64,000 bases of DNA from Prorocentrum cordatum (taxonomy: Eukaryota; Sar; Dinophyceae; Prorocentrales; Prorocentraceae): positions 923,151-987,150 of the forward strand of contig CAUYUJ010015282.1 in assembly GCA_963575745.1 (NCBI GenBank), read 5' to 3'. Numbering within the stretch: position 1 is the stretch's first letter; each line of letters starts with the position of its first letter. The translations under genes and the position numbers were made by a program. This document shows positions 6,528-64,000 of this stretch, in pieces. The notes under the pieces are model-generated. The model worked only from the letters and a program-made list of their open reading frames with translations. It was not told the DNA's origin and searched no databases.

Positions 6528-6549
6528 CTTGAGCCAAAATGGCTACGGA
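6528..6549 (-). other. Perfect dinoflagellate spliced-leader relic
   Basis: The minus strand reads T, CC, then GTAGCCATTTTGGCTCAAG. This is an exact match to the 22-nt dinoflagellate spliced leader, in which the first base may be A, G or T. The next bases are CCAGC, not GT, so this is not the exon of a spliced-leader RNA gene. It is a leader copied into DNA with a processed mRNA. A (CTC)n run lies immediately upstream on the same strand. Confidence 0.93.
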
Positions 6550-13170: not shown

Positions 13171-14596
13171 TAATCGCGGACTCTGCAGTGTCGCGGGGGG
13201 CCCTGGGGCTCCTTCAGGGTGGACCGGGGCCTCGTCGGGGCCGCTCCCTCTCAAAAACCATGTCCGAAGTTGGATACCCCACATTTTTCTACAATTTCAA
13301 GCATGTCGGACTTTGCTTCGGATATAGTTTCGGGTGCATGACATCGCGATTTCGGGCCACTTCCCAAGGTCAACCTTTTTCAAATCATCGATTCGAGGTG
13401 GTCTCGCAGGTCGCTGTCGACCATCGCGGTCGTCACCCGAGCAACGAACCTACGCATCTGTGAGGCTTCCGAGTGCCACTCTTCAACCACATGAATGACG
13501 CACTTGTGGCTGCGTAGTCTGACCGGGCCACCGCTGTTCATGTTCGTGCGAAACGTGCTATTGCTTATCTTGTATACTAGATATATTCGCTCAGATGTGC
13601 TCCTTCACACGTGCAAAAGGTCGCTGGGCAAAGTCCTCGGGGCGATGGGCTCGGAGTCAACCACGCGCCCGTGGATTCGCGCGCGCCTGCAAAGCCCACG
13701 GGCGAGAACCACCATGAAGCTTACACTTGCAACGTACCAGCACCGAGAACTGGACAAACACACGTTCAGAACGTTCGGAGGCCGCTTAGTCCTCTCCATC
13801 TCTGACTGACTGGGAAAGGCCAAACGCGGGAGGGACCGCCCCGTACGGACCTCCGACGGATCTTCGTCCTGAGCGTCGGGAAGTCGGCGTCATAGCAGGA
13901 GCCATCATACAAAGTGACATTTGCAACAAGCACAAACTGGGGCTGGTTTCCTGCCCATCTGCAGTGCCAGCTCTTCTGGAACTCACGCGACTGACTGGAT
14001 CGGGCCCGAGTCGCATTCCATGCACCAGACATGGGTCGGGAGGAGGGAGGATGAGGTCGATGATCGCGGGTCGCGGATTCGGGGCGCCCTCGTGGCCGCA
14101 CCCCAGGAGGGGTACGGGAGTAGTCGTTGTAAGTACGAGAGCCTGGACCTCCAGACGTCGGCAAGCATCATGATTGCCAGTTACTGCAGGTTTGGGTTTG
14201 AGCGCTCTGGAGGCCCACGTCGCGAACAAAAAAAACGCGGCGCCGGGCGTCGCGGGAGGGAGGGAGGTGGGGAGGAGGGAGGGAAGGGGCACGGGGATAG
14301 AGGAGGGTGAGAGGGAGGAAGCGGGGCGGGGCGATAAAGCCACAGAGCTCTGGCGCTGCGATTGCGCGTCTCTTGCTCTGCCTGGGCTCCAGGGAACACC
14401 GCAGGACCTCAGGATCCGAGCCACGGCTGCCAGGGATCACGCGGCACACGACTCCACGCCACCGGATTTTCTTGCTCGTGCGCTGCGAGTGGCAGGCCCA
14501 GAGGGAGGACGCCCATGGTCTGGGGCCCCCTTGGGGAGACCCCTCTCGGTCAGGCCACTGCTGCGCGGCCCTTCCTGCACGGTCAGGAGATTTGGC
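13171..14596. other. No gene seen
   Basis: Overlapping ORFs on both strands up to about 210 aa, none with a recognisable motif. A purine-rich stretch lies near 14250-14330. Confidence 0.4.
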
Positions 14597-14757
14597 TTAG
14601 CGTGTCGCGCCGCCGGTTCTGGCCCACCGCGCTTCGGCGCGACACGCTAACCACGGCCCAGCTCCCGAGCCTTTTCCAGCTCCCCTCCCCGCGCAGCGGA
14701 GCGACACGCTATCCGCTCGCCGGGCATAGCGTGTCGCGGGGGCCGCCGCCGCGACAC
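14597..14757. repeat. Cluster of three hairpins sharing TAGCGTGTCGCG
   Basis: Stem 1 is TTAGCGTGTCGCGCCG (14597-14612) against 14635-14650, 16 bp perfect, 22-nt loop. Stem 2 is GCGACACGCTAT (14701-14712) against 14726-14737, 12 bp perfect. Stem 3 is GTGTCGCGG (14731-14739) against 14749-14757, sharing bases with stem 2 so that the two are alternatives. Confidence 0.9.
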
Positions 14758-15091
14758 GTCAAGCAACAAATCCCGACCGTGCCCCTCCTTCCTCTTCCTG
14801 CAGGTGTCCGAGCAGTGGCATCTCGGCGCGACTGTCCCTTCCCCGCCCCCTCCTCCCAAAGGCCTGCCACCGCAGCCATGTTGGCTCAGCCGGATTGTCT
14901 GCCCTGTGCAGCTCGGCACGCCCTGTGGGGCCCCGGCGCTCTTGGCGCTTGGCATGGCCGCGGCTGGCAGGGTTGTCCAGGGCAGTGTCGTGGAAGCCCA
15001 GGGCCCAAGATACGTCCAGGCGACGGTGGTCGGACCCGGGCAGCAGGCCCCTTCCCCCCATCCTCCTTCCCTCCTCGAAGAGCCAACCACG

Positions 15092-15255
15092 GCATACACA
15101 CAGTTTCTCCGAGCTCCGCGCGGATTTCTTGGATCGGCGCTGGGCCCCCTGGCGGCACCTGCGGCGCCTCCCCCAGCGCGCTCCGCGAACCAGGGAGGGG
15201 GGTCCAGCGCCGATCAAAGAAATCCGCGCGGAGCTCCGAGAAAGTGTGCTGATGC
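15092..15255. mobile_element. Foldback (MITE-like) element
   Basis: 15104-15143 and 15204-15243 are inverted copies matching at 38 of 40 positions (each contains GAGCTCCGCGCGGATTTCTT). Weaker complementarity extends outward to about 15092/15255 and inward (GGCCCCCTGG against CCAGGGAGGGGG). There is no room for coding. No clean target duplication is seen, so its mobility is inferred from structure only. Confidence 0.75.
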
Positions 15256-21493: not shown

Positions 21494-21515
21494 TCCGTGG
21501 CCATTTTGGCTCAAG
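21494..21515 (+). other. Spliced-leader relic at the LINE 5' end
   Basis: T, CC, then GTGGCCATTTTGGCTCAAG: 21 of 22 positions match the dinoflagellate leader (A to G once). The next bases are GCTATG, not a GT donor. It lies 178 nt upstream of the first plausible ORF1 ATG (21693) and right after a (CTC)n run. Confidence 0.9.
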
Positions 21516-21692
21516 GCTATGAACCGTCCCGACGACCGCGAATCTTTCGGGGCGACCTCAGAGCGCGAGGGAGGTTCCGCTTTGAGGCCACTCACCAATC
21601 CAGTCTTCTGGCGCCTAGCTATCATTGTGTGCCTTCACCGCGGGAGTTGGGTCCCCGCCAAGTCTCTTCCCATTCCGTCTGTGCTGCTCGTG

Positions 21693-23051
21693 ATGGCTGA
21701 TGGCGCCCCTGCTGGGGAGTTCTCGGCCTCTCAGGCAGAACTGCTGGAGCTCGCACCGACCTTCCCGTCCTAAGAAGGCAAGGCGGGAAAGGGCAAGGGC
21801 TGCGTCCCCGCTGGTATCGCCAGTTGTGCTGCTCATGAGCGGCGTGCTCTTCCCCCTCATGGCCAGCCTGCGATTGCCGTCGAAGATGACGACATGCCGC
21901 CGCACCTTGACGATGACGACGACGCCTCGGAGGACTATATCAAGCAGTGCTGTGCCGACACGCTCGACAAGATGCGAGAAGAGCTGGCCACCGACATCAG
22001 CAAGTCTCTCACCGCCACTATCAAGCAGAATATTGAGGTCCAGAACAAACCAACTCTTGAGTTGCTGGACCAGCTCCGCGCGCAGCTGGTTCAGCCGCCC
22101 GCGGACCTCGACCAGAAGATCCTCTCGATCGTCCGCCCCCAGCTCGACTCCACCGCCCGCCGCACGCAGTCGCAGCTTGACGCCCAGCAGGTGCAGATAA
22201 ATGAAACAGACGGGCGCGTTGCGAATGTTGAGGCTCAGATGCTCGAAGTACAGGCCCACATGGGGGCACTCAAGAAGGAGCTCCACTTGGCTGAACAACG
22301 CCCCCGCGCTCCGCTCACTCAGCCGAAAGGTTTCGACAGGGAGGTGGGCGCCTCGCTGGTGGTGGCTATGGCCCAACGACCGACCACCACGCCTTGCGTC
22401 GAAGCTGAACTACGGCCTTGGATCGCGCCCCTCGGCCTTGCCGACGACCTCTACGACATTGTTCCCGTCGGCGCTGTGCCCGCCAAGAAGTTTCACATCC
22501 GCTTCAAAGGCCTCATCGCCGTCGCGCCTAGGATGGCGGCGAAGGTCATCGGCCCCACGCGCTCCGAGGGGGTCTGGGAGGAGTTCACGGCCGAGGTCCC
22601 AGGCAGCCCGCGCTGCCGCATCCACCTGGGCCCCGGCAAGTCGCCGCGCCAGATTCGCAGCGAAATCCTCCTGCGGGGGGCCCGTGGACTCACTGCTGAG
22701 CGCCATCCGAACCTTCGGTTGTTTACGGACAGAGAGCGTGCCACACTTTCCATCGGCTGGGATCGCATCATGCGCGTGGAGGTCCATCCTGGTAACAAAC
22801 CTGCGGAGTTCTACTGGGACTCTCAACAGCTGGCGAAGCACGATCTCGTCAACGCCGAGCTCGTGGCGCTGCTGGCCCCCTCGTCGAACCTGAGGCTGAA
22901 CCACAGTGGTGTCTTTGACGTATGGAAGCCATTCAAATGTACGTCGCCTTCGTCATCTTCCCTTGTGTGCTCCATGAGGGCTGTCACGTGGAATGCCCGT
23001 GCATTGCTCCAACACGCTGGCAAAAATGGCGCGCGGCAGCTTAGCAACTAA
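21693..23051 (+). pseudogene. LINE ORF1-like region and start of endonuclease
   Basis: Frame from ATG 21693 (MADGAPAGEF) meets a TAA at 21771, then is open to the TAA at 23049-23051. It begins with an acidic stretch (HLDDDDDASED). From about 21930 to 22330 comes a helical region rich in Glu, Gln, Lys and Leu (TLDKMREELATDISKSL, QMLEVQAHMGALKKEL) typical of a coiled coil. A globular part follows (22400-22900; IAPRMAAKVIGPTRSEGVW, FTDRERATL) that may bind nucleic acid, as ORF1 proteins do. Last comes the endonuclease start MRAVTWNARALL at 22974. ORF1 and EN-RT therefore share one frame here, as a fused polyprotein, apart from the stops. Confidence 0.7.
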
Positions 23052-23950
23052 CTCCGTCTTCAACCTGCCCGCTCTATCGTGTGCCTGCAGGAAGTCGGGC
23101 AAGACGAATTTCAACTTCGCGAGTTGCTGGGTCCGTTGGGGGAGTCGCTGGCGGTGCATACGTCGATTTGTGGTGACTCAGGTGCGGGCCGTATCCGTGG
23201 GGGTGTTGCCGTTCTTCTTCCTCAATGTTGCCGGGCAGCTGGGGGGCGCGTGCGAAGCCACGCTGTGGCTCTTGTACCTGGTCGGGTTCTGCATGTTACT
23301 GTCGAGTGTGGCTCGATATGCATGGGCATCTTTAACATTCACGATCCTGATCTGAAGAGAGTGCAGGTCAGAGAGATCGTCAGGATTATCCTCGAGGCTC
23401 GCGCTGCTGCGCTCCGCGCCCCCGCCCAGCGGCTCGCGCTGGTCGCGGGCGACTTCAATTTCGCTGCTGAAGAGGCAGTTGTTCTTCACATGCTTCAGGC
23501 CGCAGTACGTCGTGCTGCGAGGCAACATCATGGGCAGGCCCAAGTCTGGCGCCAGGCCCTCTCGCAGCTCGTCGAAGTGGAGTGCGATACGGGGTCGCAC
23601 TACGAGAAAAAGTCCAACCCGGAGGCCGCTATTGATCGTCTCTTCCTCTCTCTTCTTGGGTGGATGGTTCTTGCCGACATCGTCTTCAGGCAGCCGCCGT
23701 CGATTCCGCGGCATCCGCCTCGGACTCGGTCGTCTCGGACCACGCTGCCGTCGTGATCGCTATTGCCCCCCGTGCTGCTCATCCCCCTGCCGAACGCCCT
23801 CTCGCCAAACATCTCTTCCAGGACCCGAGGTGCCAGGAGCGCATTCGTGCAATGAATGAATGTGCTGACTGGGATAGTACGTCGCCTCCATATCGGTTAG
23901 AACACTATAAGTATCTCGTGGAAGAAGTTGCACGTGAAGCGCGTGATAAT
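23052..23950 (+). pseudogene. LINE endonuclease (EEP/APE-like) domain
   Basis: Continues in the same frame as ORF1 after the single TAA at 23049-23051. The frame reads SIVCLQEV near 23070-23093 (catalytic Glu of the exonuclease-endonuclease-phosphatase fold), GGVAVLLPQ, RLALVAGDFNF at about 23430-23461 (GDxN box) and EAAIDRLFLS near 23620-23650. A frameshift between about 23660 and 23740 moves the final SDHAAVVIAI (SDH catalytic box) into the frame 23660-24070. That frame continues through LEHYKYLVEEVAREA before the RT resumes in the original frame. The domain would nick target DNA for priming; this copy is interrupted. Confidence 0.8.
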
Positions 23951-26900
23951 GATTTCCGACGATGCCCCCACCACCCGTCCACCTTGCTCCAGCTTGCTCG
24001 CTCACTTGCCAGAGTGGTGCGATGTGAAGTTGGCCAGGAAGCTTCTGGAATCCCACCCCGTGTCGTCTGACTTCATTCGTGTCCGAGGTCCCGTGGTCGA
24101 GCCGTTGCATCCTGAGTCATTTCACGCTTGGTCTGACCGACTCCAGTGGGAGGCGGCGGAGCGTGCACGGGCTGAGCTGCAAAGAAGGAAGGACTCTCCT
24201 CAGGAAGTGCGTGCCACTCGATTGCAGCTGCGATCCCTGGAAAGGCGGGCTGGTCTGTGGTCCCCGTTAAATCGTCGCGCATGCCTGACGGCAGTCACCG
24301 ATGGGCACGGGCGTGCTGCGTGTGACCCCTCCGAACGCGTGGGCCTCCTGAAGAGCTACTGGGCCCCTGTGTTCTCCAAGAAGCCCTGGGGCCGCGACAG
24401 GGCGATCGAGTATGCCGCTCAATACTTACCTGCTGTTGATGAAGTGGTACTTCCTCCTCCTACCCCTCGCCTCCCACGCGCTGTGCTTGCGCGTGCCACC
24501 GACTCTGCGACTGGATGCGATGGGCTCTCTTATACGGCGTGGCGATCCGAGCCTTTTGGCGTGACCATCCTCTGGGGCTGTCTGGAGTGGGTGATGAGGG
24601 GCCAGGCATTGTTTGATTCGGCGAGCATTACGCTGCAGGTCTTTTTGCCCAAAAATGTTTCCGAAGACAAGGCCCGAGCCGGCCAGGTCGAGAGGGGGGC
24701 GGACAATGTGAGGGCGCTCGGTCTCCGCAATTGCGGCGGGAAGGTCCTCTCAGCCACCATGAATGCTGCCCTTCGCCCCATTCTTGAACGCGTCGCCCCC
24801 CCCTGTCAAAGGGGCTTTGTTCCAGGGCGGAACTTTGGCCTGAATGTGCTGGAGTTGGACGTGTCAAGCCGCCAGCTCTCGTGCACACCATACGGTTCGC
24901 GTGACTTACCGATTCTCTACAGTCTGGACTGGGGCCAGGCCTTCCCGTCCCTGAATCAGGAGTTCTTGCTGTTCATACTTGGGGCTCTTCGCCTTCCAGA
25001 GGCTATCCTGATGTTCGTTGGGTTCCTATATGAGGCCATCGAGGGTATCGCGATCTCCATGGGGCTCCGTGTTCACCTGTACTGGGTCCGTAGCGGGATC
25101 ATTCAGGGTTGTGCATTGTGGGGCTCGCTGTATGCTATAGCGTCGTCACCGTTCTTGCACCGCCTCGTCCGCGTGACCGAGGAAGCGGGCCGCGGGCTCG
25201 TGCGTGCGTGCGCCGACGACATCGGCGGCACTCTGGTGAGCATTGAGGACATGGCCTGGGTCGCCCTCGCGATGAGGGATGCGGAGTTGATGGCGAACCT
25301 TGTCTTGAAGATTCAGAAGTGCCAGGTGGTCCCTGTTTCAGCCTCCTTTAGTCCCGCCCTCGCTTTGGGGGCTCTGGGGGGGCTCTCCCAGGCAGTACCC
25401 CACTGGTCCTCCATGAAGATCGTCTCAGAGCTCCTTTACCTTGGGATTTGGCTTGGTCCCTCCGTGGACCCAGTGAGACCCTGGGCTGGCCCTCTTGCGA
25501 AGGCGCGGCTGCGGGCTCGAGCTGTTGGGCGAGGCGTCGCCCCGGCCAGCCTCTCATCCATCATCTACAATACGCGTATCCTCACCACACTCTCATACGT
25601 TAGCCAGTTCTTTTGGATGCCAAGAGCTGTACTCGCCTGCGAGCTAGGTGTGCTCGCGCGAGTCTACCGTGTCGCCCTGGGCACCTTCCCGCTGAACGCG
25701 CGGGCGCAGGTGGACCTCTGGCAAGGACCGCGAGTTCAGCGCTGGGCCCACCTCAACCTGGCCACCTTGGTGAGGTCGGCCGCCCACACTTTCCCCGAGC
25801 ACCAGCAGCTGTTGAACAGCATGCGGACCCACGCGGAGGCACTCACTGACTCCATGACGCTGGACATGGTCGGCACTGGCGCACCCTACCCTGGCTTCTG
25901 GCGGAGCCCTGCCATTGTCGAGAACCTCGCGCAGGCCCTGGGGGGTCCCGCGTCCGCGGGGCCCTGGGCCGCGCTTCTTCCCTGCGCTCGTGAGGCCCTT
26001 GCGAATGCTGCTGAAGTCCCGCCTGGCGTTCGGTCTCGACCTCCACGGACTGTCCATCGTGCTCTTCGTGATCTTGCGGCTCGGACAGCACCTCTTCGTG
26101 AGCTCCTACGCATGCGGCTTCAAAAGTTCTTCTTCCGACGGGATGGTACCCTACTCGACCAGCTCGACTGGCAGCAGATTGCTGCCACGCTCAGCCAATG
26201 CCTCTGCTCCTGGGCATGGGCGACGTTGAGGACCTGGTGCGATGGCTGGCTTACTTCCTCGCGTATTCTTCATCCTGCGGGTAGACGTGGATGTGCCTTT
26301 GGATGCCACAAATGCGCTGACTCACTCATCCACTACTCGCGGTGTGTACGTATGCATGCCGCGCTTCGTCGAGCCCTTGGGCATGGCTTCCCTATGGAGC
26401 TCGCTGAGAGGTGGGGTTTCGTGGCGCCCTCGACCTCCGCATATGGCTTCATGGCAGCAGCGGTGAGCATGTATAACACTGTCCGCCTGATCCCCGACTG
26501 GCCGATCTCCGAGCAGGATGCCTTTAGTGCCGCGCTGGCGGGAGTGAGGAGCATGCGAATGGCCACTACCTCTGCGCTTTCGGACGACTCGCCACCGCTG
26601 TGGCGCACCCGCTTTATGACTCCACGGAGACGTGGCACGTCTTCCTCTTCATCTGTCTCTTCGACGTCATCGTCTGCTCCGTCGTGTGGATGTGCGGGCG
26701 GCGCGGACTTAGACGGCGGCCTTGGCCTGACCCCGATGCTGATCCCCGAGCCGCATGACTTGGATGCCGATGAGGATGAACTGGTGTCGTTCGACTTCTG
26801 CTCGCGCGCACCACTGGCGACGCCTGGCACTCCTTCGACGGCTGTGGCCACTCCCGAACGCGTTGGCCCCCTGCACGCCCTGTATGACAGCGACTGGGTG

Positions 26901-27944
26901 CGACCGACCACTATTGATGTCAGAACGCAAAGTCCTGTCGGCGGGTGCTCCTCGAGCCCGTCTGGTCAGGCTGATGGAGTAAGTTGCGAGGGCGAGTCTC
27001 GATCGCGCACGGATGCCCCCCACCTGGCGCGCTCCGAAAGTGGCGAGGTCAGAACGCAAAGTCCTGACGGCGGGTGCTCCTCGAGCCCGTCGACTCAGGC
27101 GTCTGGAGTAAGTCGCGAGGATATGCCTGCAGTGGCATGCGGGTCTCTGCCAATTGAACCTTTGACGGTGGGAGGGATCAGAACGCAAAGTCCTGCGCGC
27201 GGGTGCTCCTCGAACCCAGTGCAGCAGGCTCATACAAATTGTGAGGAGGATGTCGCGGCTTCCGTACTGTCCAGGGCTGCCAGATGGTCGGGACGTTGTT
27301 GGATCTGGTCGACGACTCCACGGGAATTGGCACCGTGCTCGTGGACGCGGCCATCGCCGACCCAGAGTGCTACCGCGACCTCGTCGGCCCCGCCCCCGGC
27401 TGCGCCTGCCACCTCCTCGAGCTCGGGACCAGTCTATTATCAGATGCAGGCCTTCGCCATCGATGATGCGCATGACACCCCGCTTGAAGCCCCCTCGGAT
27501 CCGTGCCCTCCGAGTGATCCTGAGGCCACCTGTGTGCTCGCTCTGTCCGACTCTGTGCTGGGACCCATCGGACCTGCTGGGTGTCTGGCGGTCTCTCCCC
27601 ACCCTAGCAGTGCTTGCGCGCCTCTCGTCCGTGCTCCCGCCGCTCCCTCTCCTGCGCCGCTTGGCGGCCTGTTTGGGGTCCGCTTCGCGTGTGGCTTGGA
27701 GATCTCGGGTGAAGGAGTCCACCACCCGCCCGTGTCTGGAGCCAGTGGTTGGCGTCTTTTCGACGCAAATTGTCTGGCCTCTCGCCCGCCTTGCCTGTCC
27801 ATCTCTTCCCACCTCCCTGCGTTCGACCCTCCTGCTGCTGCCCCCCTCCGCCGAGAGCCTGTCCGCACCTCCGCGGTACATCCTGGCGCCGACCCAGGCG
27901 CGCCCGCCGCCCCGCTGCCGCCCGCGTCGTCGGGCGGGCCGTAG
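23928..27944 (+). CDS. LINE reverse transcriptase polyprotein part (RT, zinc knuckle, repetitive tail)
   Basis: Open for 1,338 codons. The listed Met is only the first in the open stretch; the natural protein starts upstream in ORF1/EN. RT landmarks are ATGCDGLSYTAW-like text near 24505-24540, LDWGQAFPSLN at 24924 (motif A Asp), SGIIQGCALWGSLY at 25093 (motif B) and RACADDIGG at 25206 (motif C, ADD). SELLYLGIWLG near 25425 is the thumb-side YLG box. A C-x2-C-x5-H-x3-C knuckle (CHKCADSL..HYSRC) lies at 26304-26344, as in many LINE C termini. From 26640 the protein is Ser/Pro/Ala-rich and has three ~130-bp repeats reading RTQSP..GCSS at about 26921, 27049 and 27179. The protein copies RNA into DNA at a nicked target. 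No RNase H is visible, unlike the LINE at 1-2965. Confidence 0.85.
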   Translation: MHVKRVIMISDDAPTTRPPCSSLLAHLPEWCDVKLARKLLESHPVSSDFIRVRGPVVEPLHPESFHAWSDRLQWEAAERARAELQRRKDSPQEVRATRLQLRSLERRAGLWSPLNRRACLTAVTDGHGRAACDPSERVGLLKSYWAPVFSKKPWGRDRAIEYAAQYLPAVDEVVLPPPTPRLPRAVLARATDSATGCDGLSYTAWRSEPFGVTILWGCLEWVMRGQALFDSASITLQVFLPKNVSEDKARAGQVERGADNVRALGLRNCGGKVLSATMNAALRPILERVAPPCQRGFVPGRNFGLNVLELDVSSRQLSCTPYGSRDLPILYSLDWGQAFPSLNQEFLLFILGALRLPEAILMFVGFLYEAIEGIAISMGLRVHLYWVRSGIIQGCALWGSLYAIASSPFLHRLVRVTEEAGRGLVRACADDIGGTLVSIEDMAWVALAMRDAELMANLVLKIQKCQVVPVSASFSPALALGALGGLSQAVPHWSSMKIVSELLYLGIWLGPSVDPVRPWAGPLAKARLRARAVGRGVAPASLSSIIYNTRILTTLSYVSQFFWMPRAVLACELGVLARVYRVALGTFPLNARAQVDLWQGPRVQRWAHLNLATLVRSAAHTFPEHQQLLNSMRTHAEALTDSMTLDMVGTGAPYPGFWRSPAIVENLAQALGGPASAGPWAALLPCAREALANAAEVPPGVRSRPPRTVHRALRDLAARTAPLRELLRMRLQKFFFRRDGTLLDQLDWQQIAATLSQCLCSWAWATLRTWCDGWLTSSRILHPAGRRGCAFGCHKCADSLIHYSRCVRMHAALRRALGHGFPMELAERWGFVAPSTSAYGFMAAAVSMYNTVRLIPDWPISEQDAFSAALAGVRSMRMATTSALSDDSPPLWRTRFMTPRRRGTSSSSSVSSTSSSAPSCGCAGGADLDGGLGLTPMLIPEPHDLDADEDELVSFDFCSRAPLATPGTPSTAVATPERVGPLHALYDSDWVRPTTIDVRTQSPVGGCSSSPSGQADGVSCEGESRSRTDAPHLARSESGEVRTQSPDGGCSSSPSTQASGVSREDMPAVACGSLPIEPLTVGGIRTQSPARGCSSNPVQQAHTNCEEDVAASVLSRAARWSGRCWIWSTTPRELAPCSWTRPSPTQSATATSSAPPPAAPATSSSSGPVYYQMQAFAIDDAHDTPLEAPSDPCPPSDPEATCVLALSDSVLGPIGPAGCLAVSPHPSSACAPLVRAPAAPSPAPLGGLFGVRFACGLEISGEGVHHPPVSGASGWRLFDANCLASRPPCLSISSHLPAFDPPAAAPLRREPVRTSAVHPGADPGAPAAPLPPASSGGP

Positions 27945-57508: not shown

Positions 57509-59187
57509 CGTCTTTGCTGGTCAGGGCGTGATGTTTCTCGCTGGCCAAAGAGAGACGCCCTTCTCTGGCCAGGGGTGGATGCCCTTCGCAGCCGAAGCCA
57601 CTGCAGATGTCGCAGGCCAGGGAGCGGCCGTGCTGGGGAAGACGCATCGAGGCCTTGCGGCTTTGCACGCCTTTGCCAACGGCAGCGGCGACAAGACTAC
57701 CGCCTTGTCCAGGAGTCTCAATGACCGACGCTGGGCACGAAGACTTCTCACTTGAACGAGCCTTGAAATGGCTGCAGCGCCAGGCATGGTGGGCCTGTTT
57801 GCGCCGCTGTTGGATCCACGGATGCCGTCGCTGATGCGATATTCCTCTCCCTGCGTGCCGACGTTGGCAAAGTTCTTTTGGACGAGCGTACCAGCTTCAT
57901 AATGAAATTGTGACATATGTCGAGCTTGGCGATGACGTTTGGTGAGAGAACGGGCCTACGGCCTATATGTTGTGTATATGTAGACACTGCACTGAGTCTC
58001 CTTACCCTGGTTTCTACCGTGTCTTTCCTCCCGCATCCCCCATCCCCATCCGTTTTCCTGCTCTCTCCTTCTTCCTCCTTGTTTCTCACCCTCTCCTTTC
58101 TCCTTCGCTCCTTCCTCGTTCCTTCCCTATCCCCCCTCCCTCCATCCCTCCATCTCCTGCTTCTCCTCCAGGGGTGGCTCAGATCCGCTCAGGATCAGTT
58201 CGCAGACCCGTCCTAGGATACATCCTGGCCAGCTTCTCACCCCAGATCGACGTGTGACGGTCTTTGGGGGCCCGAAAACAGCCCACAGACGTGTAAAACA
58301 ACGAAAATCCCTTTCGAGCCCCCTTCGTCTGCAAAAAATCTAAAGATGGTCCCCGTAAGCTGACGTGTTTGATTATGGACCCTTTGTTAACCGCAACTGC
58401 CTAGCCTTCGCGCCGAAAACCGCCAGAGACCGTCAGAAAATCGCCAAAGACCGCCGCAGACCGCCCGAAGCCCGCCGAAGACCGCCCCAGGCTGGTGGCT
58501 GACAAGGGGGCCCGTCGTCGAAGACGTGACCTCCCCCCTGGGCCTGGCCAGGCCTGCAGCCTCGAGTCCGTGAGCGCGCTGGCTGGCGCCGCCGAGCCGG
58601 CCTGCGGGGATGCCGCGCCGGCGGAGGAGCACCGCGAGGTGGCGGAGGCGGGTGCGTCGCCGCCCTCGACGGCGGCGTGGCTCGGCGGGTGGGGCGGCGA
58701 GGGGGGGGTCGGAGTGGGGATGCGCCATGCGCAGGGCTGCGTGTCAAAAGTATTCGGCCGTCATTTTGATATTTCGATCAACCTTGACGGACCTTGACGT
58801 CAACCTTGACGGTTAGCGAGCCAACGTTTTAGTATTTCGCTAGGTGTAGACAGTGAAACATGACACACACGAGAATATAGGAGGATGACATTGGGAGCCA
58901 GGGAAACCATGAAAAATCAGAAACCCATGTGCGCAAAACCACAATAACCTAGATTTGCCGCTGGCATCCCGCATGCAATCGCGAAAGCGCACTCACTGAG
59001 CATTACCAGAAAGACCAGGCAATCAGTTTAAACAACAGAAACCATTGGTTTTTTTTTCCAAGAAAAATGAAAATCAAACGAAGCCAACGAGAAGAACAGG
59101 AAGATCATGATCGGAGACAGCTATTCTATACACAACTTTTTACGCCGACTGGCGTGGACAGGGCTGGTGGTAATGGTGGTGGAAGTG
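57509..59187. other. No confirmed gene
   Basis: A pyrimidine-rich stretch at 58025-58170, short repeats of ACCGCCxxAGACCG at 58418-58490, three CTTGACG words at 58780-58812 and an A-rich patch at 58850-59100. Confidence 0.4.
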
Positions 59188-59194
59188 GTGTTGG

Positions 59195-59227
<33 letters not shown>

Positions 59228-59320
59228 CGTTGGTGGTGGTGGTGGTGGTGGTTGCGTGTGTGTGTGTGTGTGTGTCTGTGTGTCTGTGTGTGTGTGTGTG
59301 CGTGGTGGTGGTGGTGGTGT
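59188..59320. repeat. (GTT)n, (GGT)n and (GT)n microsatellites
   Basis: GTT run, GGT run, then GT run in direct succession. Confidence 0.95.
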
Positions 59321-59544
59321 CTCTTGGGTCGTCTTGGGAGTCTCTTGGGCCGTCTTGTGGCCCTCTGGCGTCGTTTTGGGGCCCTCTTGGACACATGTTC
59401 GGCCATCTTGCGGCGTCCTTGGGGGCCTCGTGGGCCGCCTTGGCGCGTCGGGAAGCTGGGGGGGCGGGGGGGCAACCCACCGTACCATAACATTACTAGT
59501 AGATCGTATCTTGGCGCGCCCTACCAGGATGGAGCCCGCGAGAG

Positions 59545-59587
59545 TTTGTTTCCAGATTCCCTGGGGGAATCTGGTAACAAGCTCTTG
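59545..59587. repeat. Hairpin
   Basis: CCAGATTCCC, TGG loop, then the exact inverse. The stem extends outward over about 10 more bp with two mismatches. Confidence 0.85.
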
Positions 59588-60664
59588 TGGGCTGGATGGC
59601 CATTTGTGAAAAACCGCATCGTGTTTTCCCAAAACGTCCTTATAGTTTGACTTGACTTGCTCCCCGAAGAAATGCTGGCCCTCGCTTTCTCGCACTTCTG
59701 GTCCCGAAATCCAGATCTTCTTAGAGGGGGGGACTGGTCCTGGTCACAAACTCTTTTTGGGGTAATCTTGTTACAAACTCGTCTGAGGGGTCGGGTCGTC
59801 CTGCGTCCGTTTCGGGTTCGCCCCGTGATTGCCCTCAAGAGAGGGGGGGCGGGGGGGCGGGATGGGGGGTGGCGCGGCGGAAGGGGTAGGCAGGGGCACG
59901 TGGAGGAGGCGCACCACGGGGGCACCTCCAGCACGCCGGGCACAAAATCGCACCGACGCGCATAAACACGTGGAGCCACCTATGTGATTTGCACGCGACG
60001 TCTGCATGTTTTTGGTGTGTTGGCGGTGCTCGTTTCGCAGGTTAGCGCGGGGGAATTTGTTTTCAATTCCTTTTAAGGAAATTAACGTTTTCCCCCCAAG
60101 CCAGCCTGCAAAAGAAGCCCCGCCAGCACACCTGAATCATGAGGCACATCATGGGGGAGAGGACATAAAGTATGGGGGGTGGAATTGCGGTGGCAATTGG
60201 GGGGCGGATAGAGATGAGGAGGAAGGGGTCTCGTCGCCATGCCCGCCGCGGGCTGAGTCCGAACCCGAGCCCGAGCCCGAGCCAGAACAGTGACTTCAGG
60301 GATTTAGGGGGACACGGAGGGCAAGCAGGGGGGAGCAAGGGGAGGAGAAGGAGCAGGCGGAGGAGGAGGAGAGGGAGGCGAGCGATGACCGTTTATCTTA
60401 GGAGTCCGAAGTCTAGCCGCAGCTAGGGGCCAGGGCCATCGAGGCGCAGCGTGGGCGTGGGGTGCTGCAGCCTGCTTCACAAGAAACGCAGCGGCGCCGG
60501 GGAGGGATGAAGAAGAGGAGGGGGAGGAACAGGAGCAGGAGGAGAAGGAGAGGAGGGAGGAAATGGGGAGGAGGAGGAGGAGGACCTCGGACCCAGTAGC
60601 CCTACAGACAGCAACCAGGCGGTCGCAGTGAGTCCTCTTAGGCAGTCACGCCTTGAGCGTGCCC
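59588..60664. other. No confirmed gene
   Basis: GGA-rich tracts at 60330-60385 and 60505-60590. The rest is unique, with short overlapping ORFs. Confidence 0.4.
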
Positions 60665-60685
60665 CCGTAGCCATTGGGCTTCAGC
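60665..60685 (+). other. Possible degenerate spliced-leader relic before the start codon
   Basis: CCGTAGCCATT matches the first 11 leader bases exactly; the following GGGCTTCAGC matches only 4 of 10. It ends at the base before the ATG. It could mark a retroposed origin for the long intron-poor gene, or be chance. Confidence 0.3.
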
Positions 60686-63600
60686 ATGGATGTTTCTTTG
60701 TGGGCTCAGCTTAAGCGCAAGAGCTTAGTTCAGCGATTATCTGATGGTGGCGACCCGCCATTGTTTTCCAGAGATGCCTTGCTCAAGTGCGTGCAACAAT
60801 TATCGGCTCCTGGCTGTCCGCGGTGGTTTGCCACGAATCCTGATCGCATATTGGAGTATGAGTGCGTAGCACAGCTGTGGGTGAGCGGCTCTAGGACAGG
60901 GTATTCTGAGAGCGTGCTTGAACGTGTCATGGACATCGCTGGAATCGTGCACGCTGCCGCTCGCCCGCCAGCCCCCTCGAAGAATCAGAAACACAGACGG
61001 AAGCGAGGTCAACCGAAGAAGTACGCCAAAAAGGAAGCCAGAGACGAGATCACTCGATCAGTTGTGCTTAATCGCAGGGCCTTGACACGAGCACGTGAGA
61101 AAATAGCAGAGCTCAAGGATCTTGTCAAGAATTTGAAAGGCAGAATTTCAGAGTTGACTGGTCGATCGGGGCATTTCATCAGCCCGCCCGAAGGTATGGA
61201 TTTGGCTCTGCGTGCTGCGATGAGCAACCAGTCTGCAAACAGCATCGGCATGGGGCTGAAAATGGATTTAGCCAGCAAGACTTGCATTCGTTGGGAACTT
61301 CGCTGCCATGCCAGTTTGATTGCTTGTGTTCGGGGCTGCTATAAGATACTCCAGGACGTCAATTACTCAGGCCCAGAGGCGTCACTGTGCGCCCACGTCG
61401 TGTCCTGTGATGCCACGAACGCACTCGTGTGGCAGAACACAAAGCTTCACAATCTCAAAGTTCACAGCTTCTACCCGTTGCACGATTTGGCCGACAGTAC
61501 GTTTCAGGAAGTGTGCGACGGCATGGAGTGCGCAGCCATGGTAGCTGACATGAGACCGATGGTGAATGGAACGTCCGCCGAGCACCTGCACGGCACGATT
61601 CTCTCTCAACTGAGTTCAGTTGGGGCACCTACATGGAAGGATGATGCTCCGCCGAAGAGGGCGAACCACCTAGAAATTTGGATCATGAACTCGGACGCCG
61701 GTGGAGACATCGCAAAGTGTCGGAAGTGCGTGCAAGCAGAGGTTGCTGCAGACCCAGGAAAAGTATTCATTGGAGTGGATTGTATGATGCACCAATACCA
61801 CTTGATGGTCCGCAGCGACTTGGGTGTGATAGAGCACGCCGCCATTGAAGTATTCGGTCTTGACCCTGGGTATTGGAGCCGCTTGGCAAGCATCATGGTC
61901 TTGTGGCGGGACAAGGCTCGCAGCGTACACTCGGAACTTGTAGGTTTGCATGCTGGCAGCGCCATGGCGTCAACAAAGCTACCGCCGCGAGCTCTGGTTG
62001 GCCGCTGGGGGTCTGTGAGCGCATGCGAGGAGTATATTCTGGCATGTGATGAGACGGCTGTCAGAGAAGCACTTCGTCGAATTTGTGAAGCATCAGCCCC
62101 TCACAAGGCGAAGCGCAAGAAAGACGCCATCGATCAGGCGGCCGAGGATTCAGCCAAGGCTTTCACTGAGAAGATGAGCAAGGCCAGAGCCAGCGTGCTG
62201 ACAAGCTGTGCCAGCGACGCCATGTGGGCATTGATAAGGATTGCGCTGACAGCTCGGCAACCTCTGGACCACCTCTATCATTGGTTGATGAAAAAAGGCA
62301 ATGCGTTCCATGCTAAGGTTCTGAACTGGACTTCTTTTGGTGACGTTGAACGCGCAGCCGTTTGTGAGCTCGTTTGTGGTAAAGCAGAAGAGATCAACAC
62401 CGAGCTTGATGAATTGCTCTGCTTTGCTCGATTCAGACCGATTCTGGCCGATGCGTCTGGGCGCGACGCGCAGCTTCGCTTGGCGTGCTATGTATCTGCA
62501 GTGATCAACAACATCTCTTCGTTTCGGCACAGATTCTTGTGGCAATCCCAATCATATCCGCGACGGCTGTTCCTTCTCATCAAAGACCCACCACATGAGA
62601 AGAGCACGTTGAGAGCAAACGAGGCAGCAACGTTGCTGGACGTCACAGCCGATGATTTGGAACTCAACACGGCTAAGATTCGGCGAGCGCTTCTTCCGAG
62701 TATTACTGCTGCAGCGAGCGACGGCACGCTCAGCAAAGAAGCTTTCAATTTTCTGAGTGTACTCGCTGTGCTGATGACTGGGGACACGCAGGAGATCGAG
62801 GGGCTGAACAACGTATGCAAGGCTGTGGTGCGGAGTGGACCCAAAGCTGGCTTGAGCTTGGTTGCAGCTCGGTCAATTTTGCGCAAGTTGCTTGGCTTAG
62901 GCCGCAAAGATGCCAAGAGGAAATGGGCTAGCGTGGCAAATCGTTTCGAGGAGCTGAAGGCTGCCGCGGTCGAGTTCTATCCAGATGTACAAGCAGTGCT
63001 TGCAGACCCTGAACGCTTCGCGGCCGCGCCGCCAGTGGCATTCACAGCTCCGCCCGTGCCCGCGCGCCTCTTGACAGAATACAGGAGGACAAGCAATGTG
63101 GGCCGGAGAGCCAAGGCATGGAGCTTGGCACTTTACCGAGCAGTTGGCAAATCGAGAACAGCAACGTATTGTTTGTATGTGGCTGATTCGAAGGATTGCA
63201 TTCCGACTAACGTGTACTTGAACGCTGGTACTCTAGGCCTCCTAGATGGGGTCGGAGTAGATGGGGTCGGTAGATCGCGATCGCGCCGCATCGCCGATGC
63301 ATCGACGATGTGGCTCGACGTGGAGCCCGATTTTGTCCACGCCGACTTCGCCGGTGCATCGCCCACGTCGACGATGCATCGCACGTGCATCGCCCATGCA
63401 TCGCCGATGCATCGCCAACGTATCGCAAACGCTGCGCGATCCTCCGACCCCATCCACTCGGGCCCCATCTAGGATGCCTCTAGGTACTCATGGCTGTCTT
63501 GGTTTCCTCGCGCACTGCAGGGTATATAGTGGAGTGGCAATGCAAGATCCAAGCATGAGACTTCAACGACCTGTCCAAATTACAAACGCAGAAGATTTTT

Positions 63601-64000
63601 TTGAGACGTGTTCAGACTTGGGCGATGAGTTCCATGTGTTCAAATGCGAGATCGACTGGTCAACCGACCCTGATCAATTCGGTAGGGGTGCTCTGCTTCT
63701 GGCCACTGCAGAACATATATTTACTTTGAGCGACCCGCCTCCACCGAAGAAAACAACAGTTGACGTATCAACATCTCCACTTGAAGAGTTGCTTGATCTC
63801 GATCCGTTTGATCTCACTGAGGAGCAGTTCGAGCAGTTCAAGGCTCGGCTTGAACTCGAGGAGGATGGCTATGAGCTTCGCGCAGAGGATCCCGGAGACT
63901 GCGAGGAGACTCAGGAGACTGAGTCAATTGTCAAAGTCGCCAAGCACCTCAGCCAATCCGACTTGCCGAAGGATGATGAGCTCGCATTCGCAGCTGCATC
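60686..64000 (+). CDS. Uncharacterised large protein, two exons visible, 3' end beyond the window
   Basis: ATG 60686 is the first in frame, with a TAG 18 nt upstream (60668). Exon 1 (60686-63227) gives 847 residues; exon 2 (63484 to the end) adds at least 171. I recognise no family. Visible parts: a basic stretch KHRRKRGQPKKYAKKEARDE near residues 100-120, then a likely coiled coil (ALTRAREKIAELKDLVKNLK, about 130-155); NSDAGGDIAKCRKC (about 335-348) and GVDCMMHQYHLM (about 363-374), whose Asp and C/H spacing recall RNase H-fold transposases such as hAT; GDTQEIEGLNNVCK near 700-712; and an acidic tail (LDLDPFDLTEEQFEQF) in exon 2. A transposase-derived or mobile protein is possible but unproven. 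Codon pattern and an unbroken frame over 2.5 kb support a real gene. Without splicing the frame ends at TAG 63470-63472 inside the intron. Confidence 0.8.
63228..63483 (+). mobile_element. Introner-like intron (GT-AG, 256 nt) made by a TIR element
   Basis: The element 63234-63482 has terminal inverted repeats (63234-63279 and 63435-63482, about 47 bp). The left arm holds TCCTAGATGGGG and GATGGGGTCGG, and so does the inverse of the right arm. The 7-bp direct repeat GGTACTC flanks it (63227-63233, 63483-63489). The left duplicate supplies the GT donor (G|GTACTC), and element end A plus right duplicate G supply the AG acceptor (CTCTAG|GTACTC). Removing 63228-63483 restores the pre-insertion sequence exactly and joins two open frames. 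No ORF of its own, so it is non-autonomous. The interior is rich in GCATCG words. Confidence 0.85.

Follow-up and report, generated by a model that had tools for sequence, protein, structure and literature searches.

The locus considered here, which lies in a window of 64,000 nucleotides of Prorocentrum cordatum DNA (the whole stretch that was analysed), raises the question of whether a transposable element inserted in a long coding frame is removed as an intron and whether the family to which it belongs is made for that purpose. The issue at stake is whether introners are elements adapted to intron-making or ordinary MITEs filtered by selection. MITEs are short elements without evident coding capacity, which carry terminal inverted repeats (TIRs), generate a target duplication and reach thousands of copies. 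The insertion of a MITE into the coding frame is real at this site, and its parts are as follows.

63232..63482, forward strand: non-autonomous TIR element (MITE), TCTAGGCC...CCTCTA, 251 bp
Element termini: family ends TCTAGGCCTCC...GGAGGCCTCTA
63227..63231, forward strand: left copy of the 5-bp target duplication GGTAC; the TC of the element coincidentally extends the direct repeat to 7 bp
63483..63487, forward strand: right copy of the target duplication GGTAC
63235..63279, forward strand: left inverted arm, 45 nt, 87% complementary to the right arm
63435..63479, forward strand: right inverted arm, 45 nt, 87% complementary to the left arm
63288..63432, forward strand: degenerate 11-nt direct repeats of the GCATCGCC type, able to fold, in the element interior

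The borders were defined by a genome search whose query was the element with its flanks. Most of the 36 genome matches restricted to the element stop within about 3 bases of 63232 and 63482, and the full 251 bp were aligned in 20 of the 26 other fetched copies; the element is therefore 251 bp long and its duplication 5 bp (GGTAC). The first-pass annotation, which had described a 249-bp element with inverted repeats of about 47 bp and a GGTACTC target duplication, was right about the TIR element, and the 7-bp direct repeat is exact (63227-63233 and 63483-63489) with its duplication intact, but the size and the arms are those given above and two of the seven bases belong to the element. In the 64-kb window the arms are the second-longest among 26 inverted pairs. 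When the window was scanned for inverted ends bordered by direct repeats, the element came second of four places (score 27), the top score (31) being that of an inverted repeat at 15109-15240, and five third-order Markov windows used as nulls gave one hit altogether (score 15); when a 7-bp direct repeat was required, the best place was 15107-15240 (29), with nulls of at most 13. The RNA of the insert folds with a z of -9.5 relative to shuffles, and the element has no evident coding capacity.

The window's own assembly, of 4,128,499,153 bases (4.13 Gb), was searched for relatives. The exact 20-nt TIR core occurs 4,754 times (2,396 and 2,358 by strand; reversed control 0), a total that differs from the copy number, as one copy may carry two cores. 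The first-pass remark that the TIR family appears only once holds within the window but not genome-wide. The search with element and flanks started from 4,771 first-look candidates, and the best 40 were scored; four of these matched over the full 263 bases and the remaining 36 mostly over the element only. An exact 5-bp duplication was present at 13 of 26 distinct sites (focal site included), three others agreed at 4 of the 5 duplication positions and ten at no more than 3; among 650 mismatched pairings, only 2 gave an exact 5-bp match. Further genomic copies, for which the first-pass annotation proposed a search, do exist, in view of the thousands of TIR cores; the duplication is of 5 bp, not of the 7-8 bp given there. 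With its terminal inverted repeats, its constant-length target duplication and its many dispersed copies, the element is, judged from its sequence, a high-copy, non-autonomous cut-and-paste transposon (MITE), and the family shares with MITEs in general its size class, its TIRs, a target duplication and a high copy number.

The frame that received this element belongs to a gene with two exons in the predicted model:

60686..63227, forward strand: exon 1 of the host gene, 847 codons plus 1 nt
63484..64000, forward strand: exon 2 of the host gene, predicted; its stop codon starts at window-coordinate 64668, beyond the window

Without the insert, the host frame starts at the ATG at 60686, ends at the stop codon at 64668 and encodes 1,242 aa. 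Four database proteins (source ENA), 42-58% identical to the host, jointly cover residues 6-654, and none of the four extends to the junction at residue 848. The conserved part of the host protein has at least 150 matching places in the genome (1,020 first-look candidates), many with long open frames (the longest of 2,119 aa); none of the family members that were scanned showed a known domain. Given these matches, the host gene represents, by this measure, a real multi-copy protein family, and the long coding frame that was said to be interrupted by the element is borne out. In exon 2, the joined frame has the highest coding score of the six frames scored (0.108, just below the 99th percentile of random window pieces, 0.112); a run of 171 codons is open from 9% of start positions in window positions 1-60000 and in only 0.02% of exon 2 shuffles.

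The closest paralogue, on contig C1892, is 57% identical over residues 782-976 (195 residues), in an alignment that crosses the junction without a gap and in which NAG/THG faces DAG/AHG (the slash marks the junction). It has no intron at the insertion site, and the element was not found in the 9 kb read around it. This gap-free alignment with a copy lacking the element indicates that the joined frame is ancestral and the insert the derived state, in a comparison that rests on one paralogue, itself decayed by frame changes elsewhere. The comparison with an element-free locus that the first-pass annotation had proposed is thereby available, in a paralogue, not an ortholog, uninterrupted at the same codon; one outcome that it had set against its own reading, a family lacking further copies together with an ortholog that bears another, non-mobile intron, fails in its first part, TIR cores being counted in thousands.

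Candidate splice borders can be placed at the edges of the insert:

63228..63483, forward strand: predicted GT-AG intron, 256 nt, acceptor AG then G, from sequence only
63470..63472, forward strand: TAG, the stop codon met by the upstream frame in an RNA that keeps the insert

The candidate donor GT (63228-63229) lies inside the duplication, and the candidate acceptor AG (63482-63483) is composed of the element's last A and the first G of the duplication, both exactly as first claimed. After removal of 63228-63483 the joined frame runs to the window end, 1,024 codons in all, without a stop, again as claimed, so that the insert combines intron-like GT...AG borders with an open frame after removal. 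The accompanying argument, that 256 = 85x3+1 makes an open frame on both sides not automatic, agrees with an insertion into a coding frame but gives splicing no support, because removing an element with one duplication always restores the target. Frame restoration is accordingly uninformative on splicing, and it would equally be seen in a plain MITE insertion that is not spliced, whose transcripts, if any, stop at the TAG at 63470 to give a 928-aa product and whose GT-AG fit is luck. We consider this reading unlikely, if the most serious of the alternatives. In its favour, the exon-1 frame continues through 81 open codons of the insert, whose retention would add 81 foreign residues before the TAG. 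However, a scarless sense-strand GT-AG intron would result from only 4.1% of random 5-bp targets taken from window 5-mers (10.7% if GC and GA are admitted as donors), which makes the scarless fit unusual for a random insertion.

The focal acceptor, AG/G, is the majority form in P. cordatum and the focal donor GT a minority form, the figures given in the relevant section of PMC10666404 being 79.7% of introns with acceptor AG then G and only 24.7% with a GT donor. Fifteen donor/acceptor pairs around the insert, three of them with a GT donor, preserve the open frame, so the exact intron borders are not forced. Splicing at other borders, for example from GT 63214 to AG 63472 or from GT 63270 to AG 63483, would likewise keep the frame open while changing some codons, but removal of 63228-63483 restores a sequence that is gap-free against the paralogue, and we rate such borders as very improbable. 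All in all, the insert probably acts as an intron.

The same insertion is found in several places of the genome, where the host gene lies on a repeated unit:

58711..64000, forward strand: in-window part of a dispersed repeated unit with the host gene, the unit being longer than 11 kb
C14433:981861 onward (window copy), C2759, C13105 and C2803: copies of the dispersed unit
60665..60680, forward strand: degraded spliced-leader-like sequence just upstream of the ATG, suggestive only

The unit has a sharp left border at about 58711, common to the four copies; its right border was not found. Three further host copies are 99.76-99.94% identical to that of the window over 3,263 bp, all contain the insert, and the exon 1 and exon 2 frames are open in 4/4 host copies found. 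Over these 3,263 bp, the distinct differing positions are 2 in the intron, 5 in exons (3 of which alter the amino acid) and 2 past the stop codon, so that the copies are too alike for selection on the exons to be visible. The retention of the insert with both exons open in four unit copies speaks against a plain unspliced insertion; on the other side, a young dispersed repeat such as the one that carries the host gene may tolerate broken genes, and the open frame of the copies may reflect youth rather than function, given that the unit is an amplified repeat with nearly identical copies. The simplest inference for the four insert-bearing copies is DNA duplication after the insertion, the copying of unspliced RNA being an alternative. 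The score of the leader-like sequence at 60665..60680 was reached by 13 of 39,761 random 60-mers, and simulated whole windows attain a leader score of 11 to 12 somewhere; as a hint of an older retrogene origin of the host gene, it is suggestive only.

An old ordinary intron, a chance repeat or an assembly artefact was also considered. The TIR family and the empty paralogous site refute it, as do the thousands of TIR cores, the identical insertion in four contigs and the Markov nulls; no support for it was found, and its probability is negligible.

The dispersed unit holds other features. It includes a C5 cytosine methylase-like ORF (L062:1352-2863; PF00145, E 1.7e-4, 21.6 bits with a cut-off of 22), a block of tandem repeats and another long ORF of 632+ aa, which gave weak hits only, and a second degraded spliced-leader-like sequence lies at about L062 position 3254, near the start of its third ORF. 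Dinoflagellate retrotransposons carrying DNA methyltransferases have already been published (PMC5890265, in the part cited).

The preferred reading, a MITE inserted at GGTAC in the host coding frame and most likely removed as a 256-nt GT-AG intron, leaves the question of whether the family is aimed at splice-ready sites. In the whole genome, GG[T/C/A] follows the exact 14-nt element end in 312 of 5,812 cases (5.4%). The count is limited to a single register and a single strand, treats each 14-nt match as the end of a family member and does not include the focal copy, which has one deviating base in its end; reversed-pattern controls gave 2 and 6. The expectation from window trinucleotides is 5.9%, so that there is a slight deficit if anything (P 0.08; P 0.03 against independent bases). 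A hand count of 100 listed GG[T/C/A] ends gave 31 GT, 20 GC and 49 GA. The genome-wide end count thus bears no sign of splice-site targeting in the register counted, where the family looks like an ordinary MITE. The "introner family" implied by the first-pass annotation is weakened, as these ends precede GG[T/C/A] no more often than base composition predicts, and the missing family-wide excess in this register is also compatible with a plain, unspliced insertion.

A smaller sample gives a different picture. Among 36 distinct fetched sites, in a sample biased to such flanks because the query carried GGTACTC and only the best 40 of 4,771 matches were scored, the duplication was exact in 18, of which 10 were splice-ready on either strand against about 20% expected (P 0.001; P 0.003 without the focal site), and first-position G / last-position C was counted in 18 of 36 (P 0.007). 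These excesses would be expected of a dedicated introner family in which target choice or retention favours intron-making sites; in view of the bias of the sample, and since the genome count disfavours it for the whole family, we judge it improbable. At the other fetched sites with an exact duplication, the emptied frames across the junction reach at most 424 codons.

The events at the focal site can be pictured as follows. A cognate transposase encoded elsewhere would have recognised the TIRs and duplicated 5 bp, as is standard for such elements, and the MITE would have landed at a GGTAC within the frame of the host gene, which the dispersed repeated unit carries. The donor GT would then come from the duplication and the acceptor AG/G from the last A of the element together with the first G of the duplication, so that splicing would yield an mRNA identical to the pre-insertion sequence; the paired arms, to judge from the folding, would draw the two splice sites together. 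The fit would be due to this insertion meeting a GGT target, not to a visible aim of the family, and the insertion would have become an introner-type intron by luck or selection.

More generally, we suggest tentatively, as a proposal about which we remain somewhat doubtful, that introners here are not a special class of elements and that an untargeted MITE yields spliceable introns as a by-product of a few percent, kept by selection; such introns would arise wherever the A at the element's end comes to lie next to a GG[T/C/A] target within an exon. If this is true, the family supplies a null rate that has been measured, about 5% in the register counted, for testing intron gain by selective filtering, and an enrichment of splice-ready targets confined to copies inside genes, and absent from the family as a whole, would measure the filter directly. 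A single family offers for this a clean insertion that is present in four duplicated copies and absent from a paralogue, along with thousands of countable sister insertions.

Introner elements have already been described in P. cordatum itself, reportedly by Dougan et al. (2023). In the sections that concern us (PMC10666404), introner elements of this organism have inverted repeats at both intron ends, as has the focal insertion, and are linked to non-autonomous DNA transposons; they are defined there by a pattern (inverted repeats of 8-20 nt and direct repeats of 3-5 nt, at most 30 bases from the intron ends), whereas the focal element is defined by a sequence family. The focal insertion agrees with the inverted-repeat introns described in that study.

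Introners that use target duplications are known from dinoflagellates, as the first-pass annotation had stated: the cited parts of Gozashti et al. (2022, PMC9860276) describe TIRs and short target duplications in introners of Symbiodinium microadriaticum and other dinoflagellates, and the dinoflagellate introner work of Roy et al. (2023) is summarised in a passage of PMC11453091. According to the former text, these introners take, as predicted for the focal insert, the donor from the duplication and the acceptor from the element and leave the length of the spliced mRNA unchanged, and the focal insertion likely works in the same way. They differ by their 4-bp duplications, against 5 bp here, and by families defined as introns; in the focal case the predicted acceptor G is shared with the duplication, and the ends of the family stand before GG[T/C/A] no more often than chance. 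The introner elements of Amoebophrya, in the portion of Farhat et al. (2021, PMC7789003) used here, also have inverted and direct repeats and a predicted hairpin joining the exon borders, but are mostly non-canonical and described without family-specific inverted repeats, whereas the focal insert has canonical GT-AG borders and a clear TIR family. By analogy with these systems, the focal case would be an addition to an introner type already known from dinoflagellates.

The rest of the window contains several other elements. Its G+C content is 58.4%, the value stated for P. cordatum in the cited part of PMC10666404 being 59.7%. A perfect 21-nt dinoflagellate spliced-leader sequence (as given in excerpts of PMC6050394 and PMC12014239) lies at 6528-6548 on the minus strand, directly after a TCC-type repeat. 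A LINE-like element with endonuclease and reverse transcriptase ORFs occupies 21495-27944; its 5' end at 21495 is a 20/21 spliced-leader match, also directly after a TCC-type repeat, making it a retrotransposon tagged by the spliced leader, and eight of its nine database relatives are named Prorocentrum cordatum. A second MITE-like element of unrelated sequence (14577-14782), whose inverted ends are imperfect and whose interior contains GCGACACGCTA repeats, adjoins a splice-acceptor-like CTTCCTGCAG/G. Finally, the longest inverted repeat of the window is found at 15092-15255, with 58-nt arms that are 88% complementary and a 48-nt loop.
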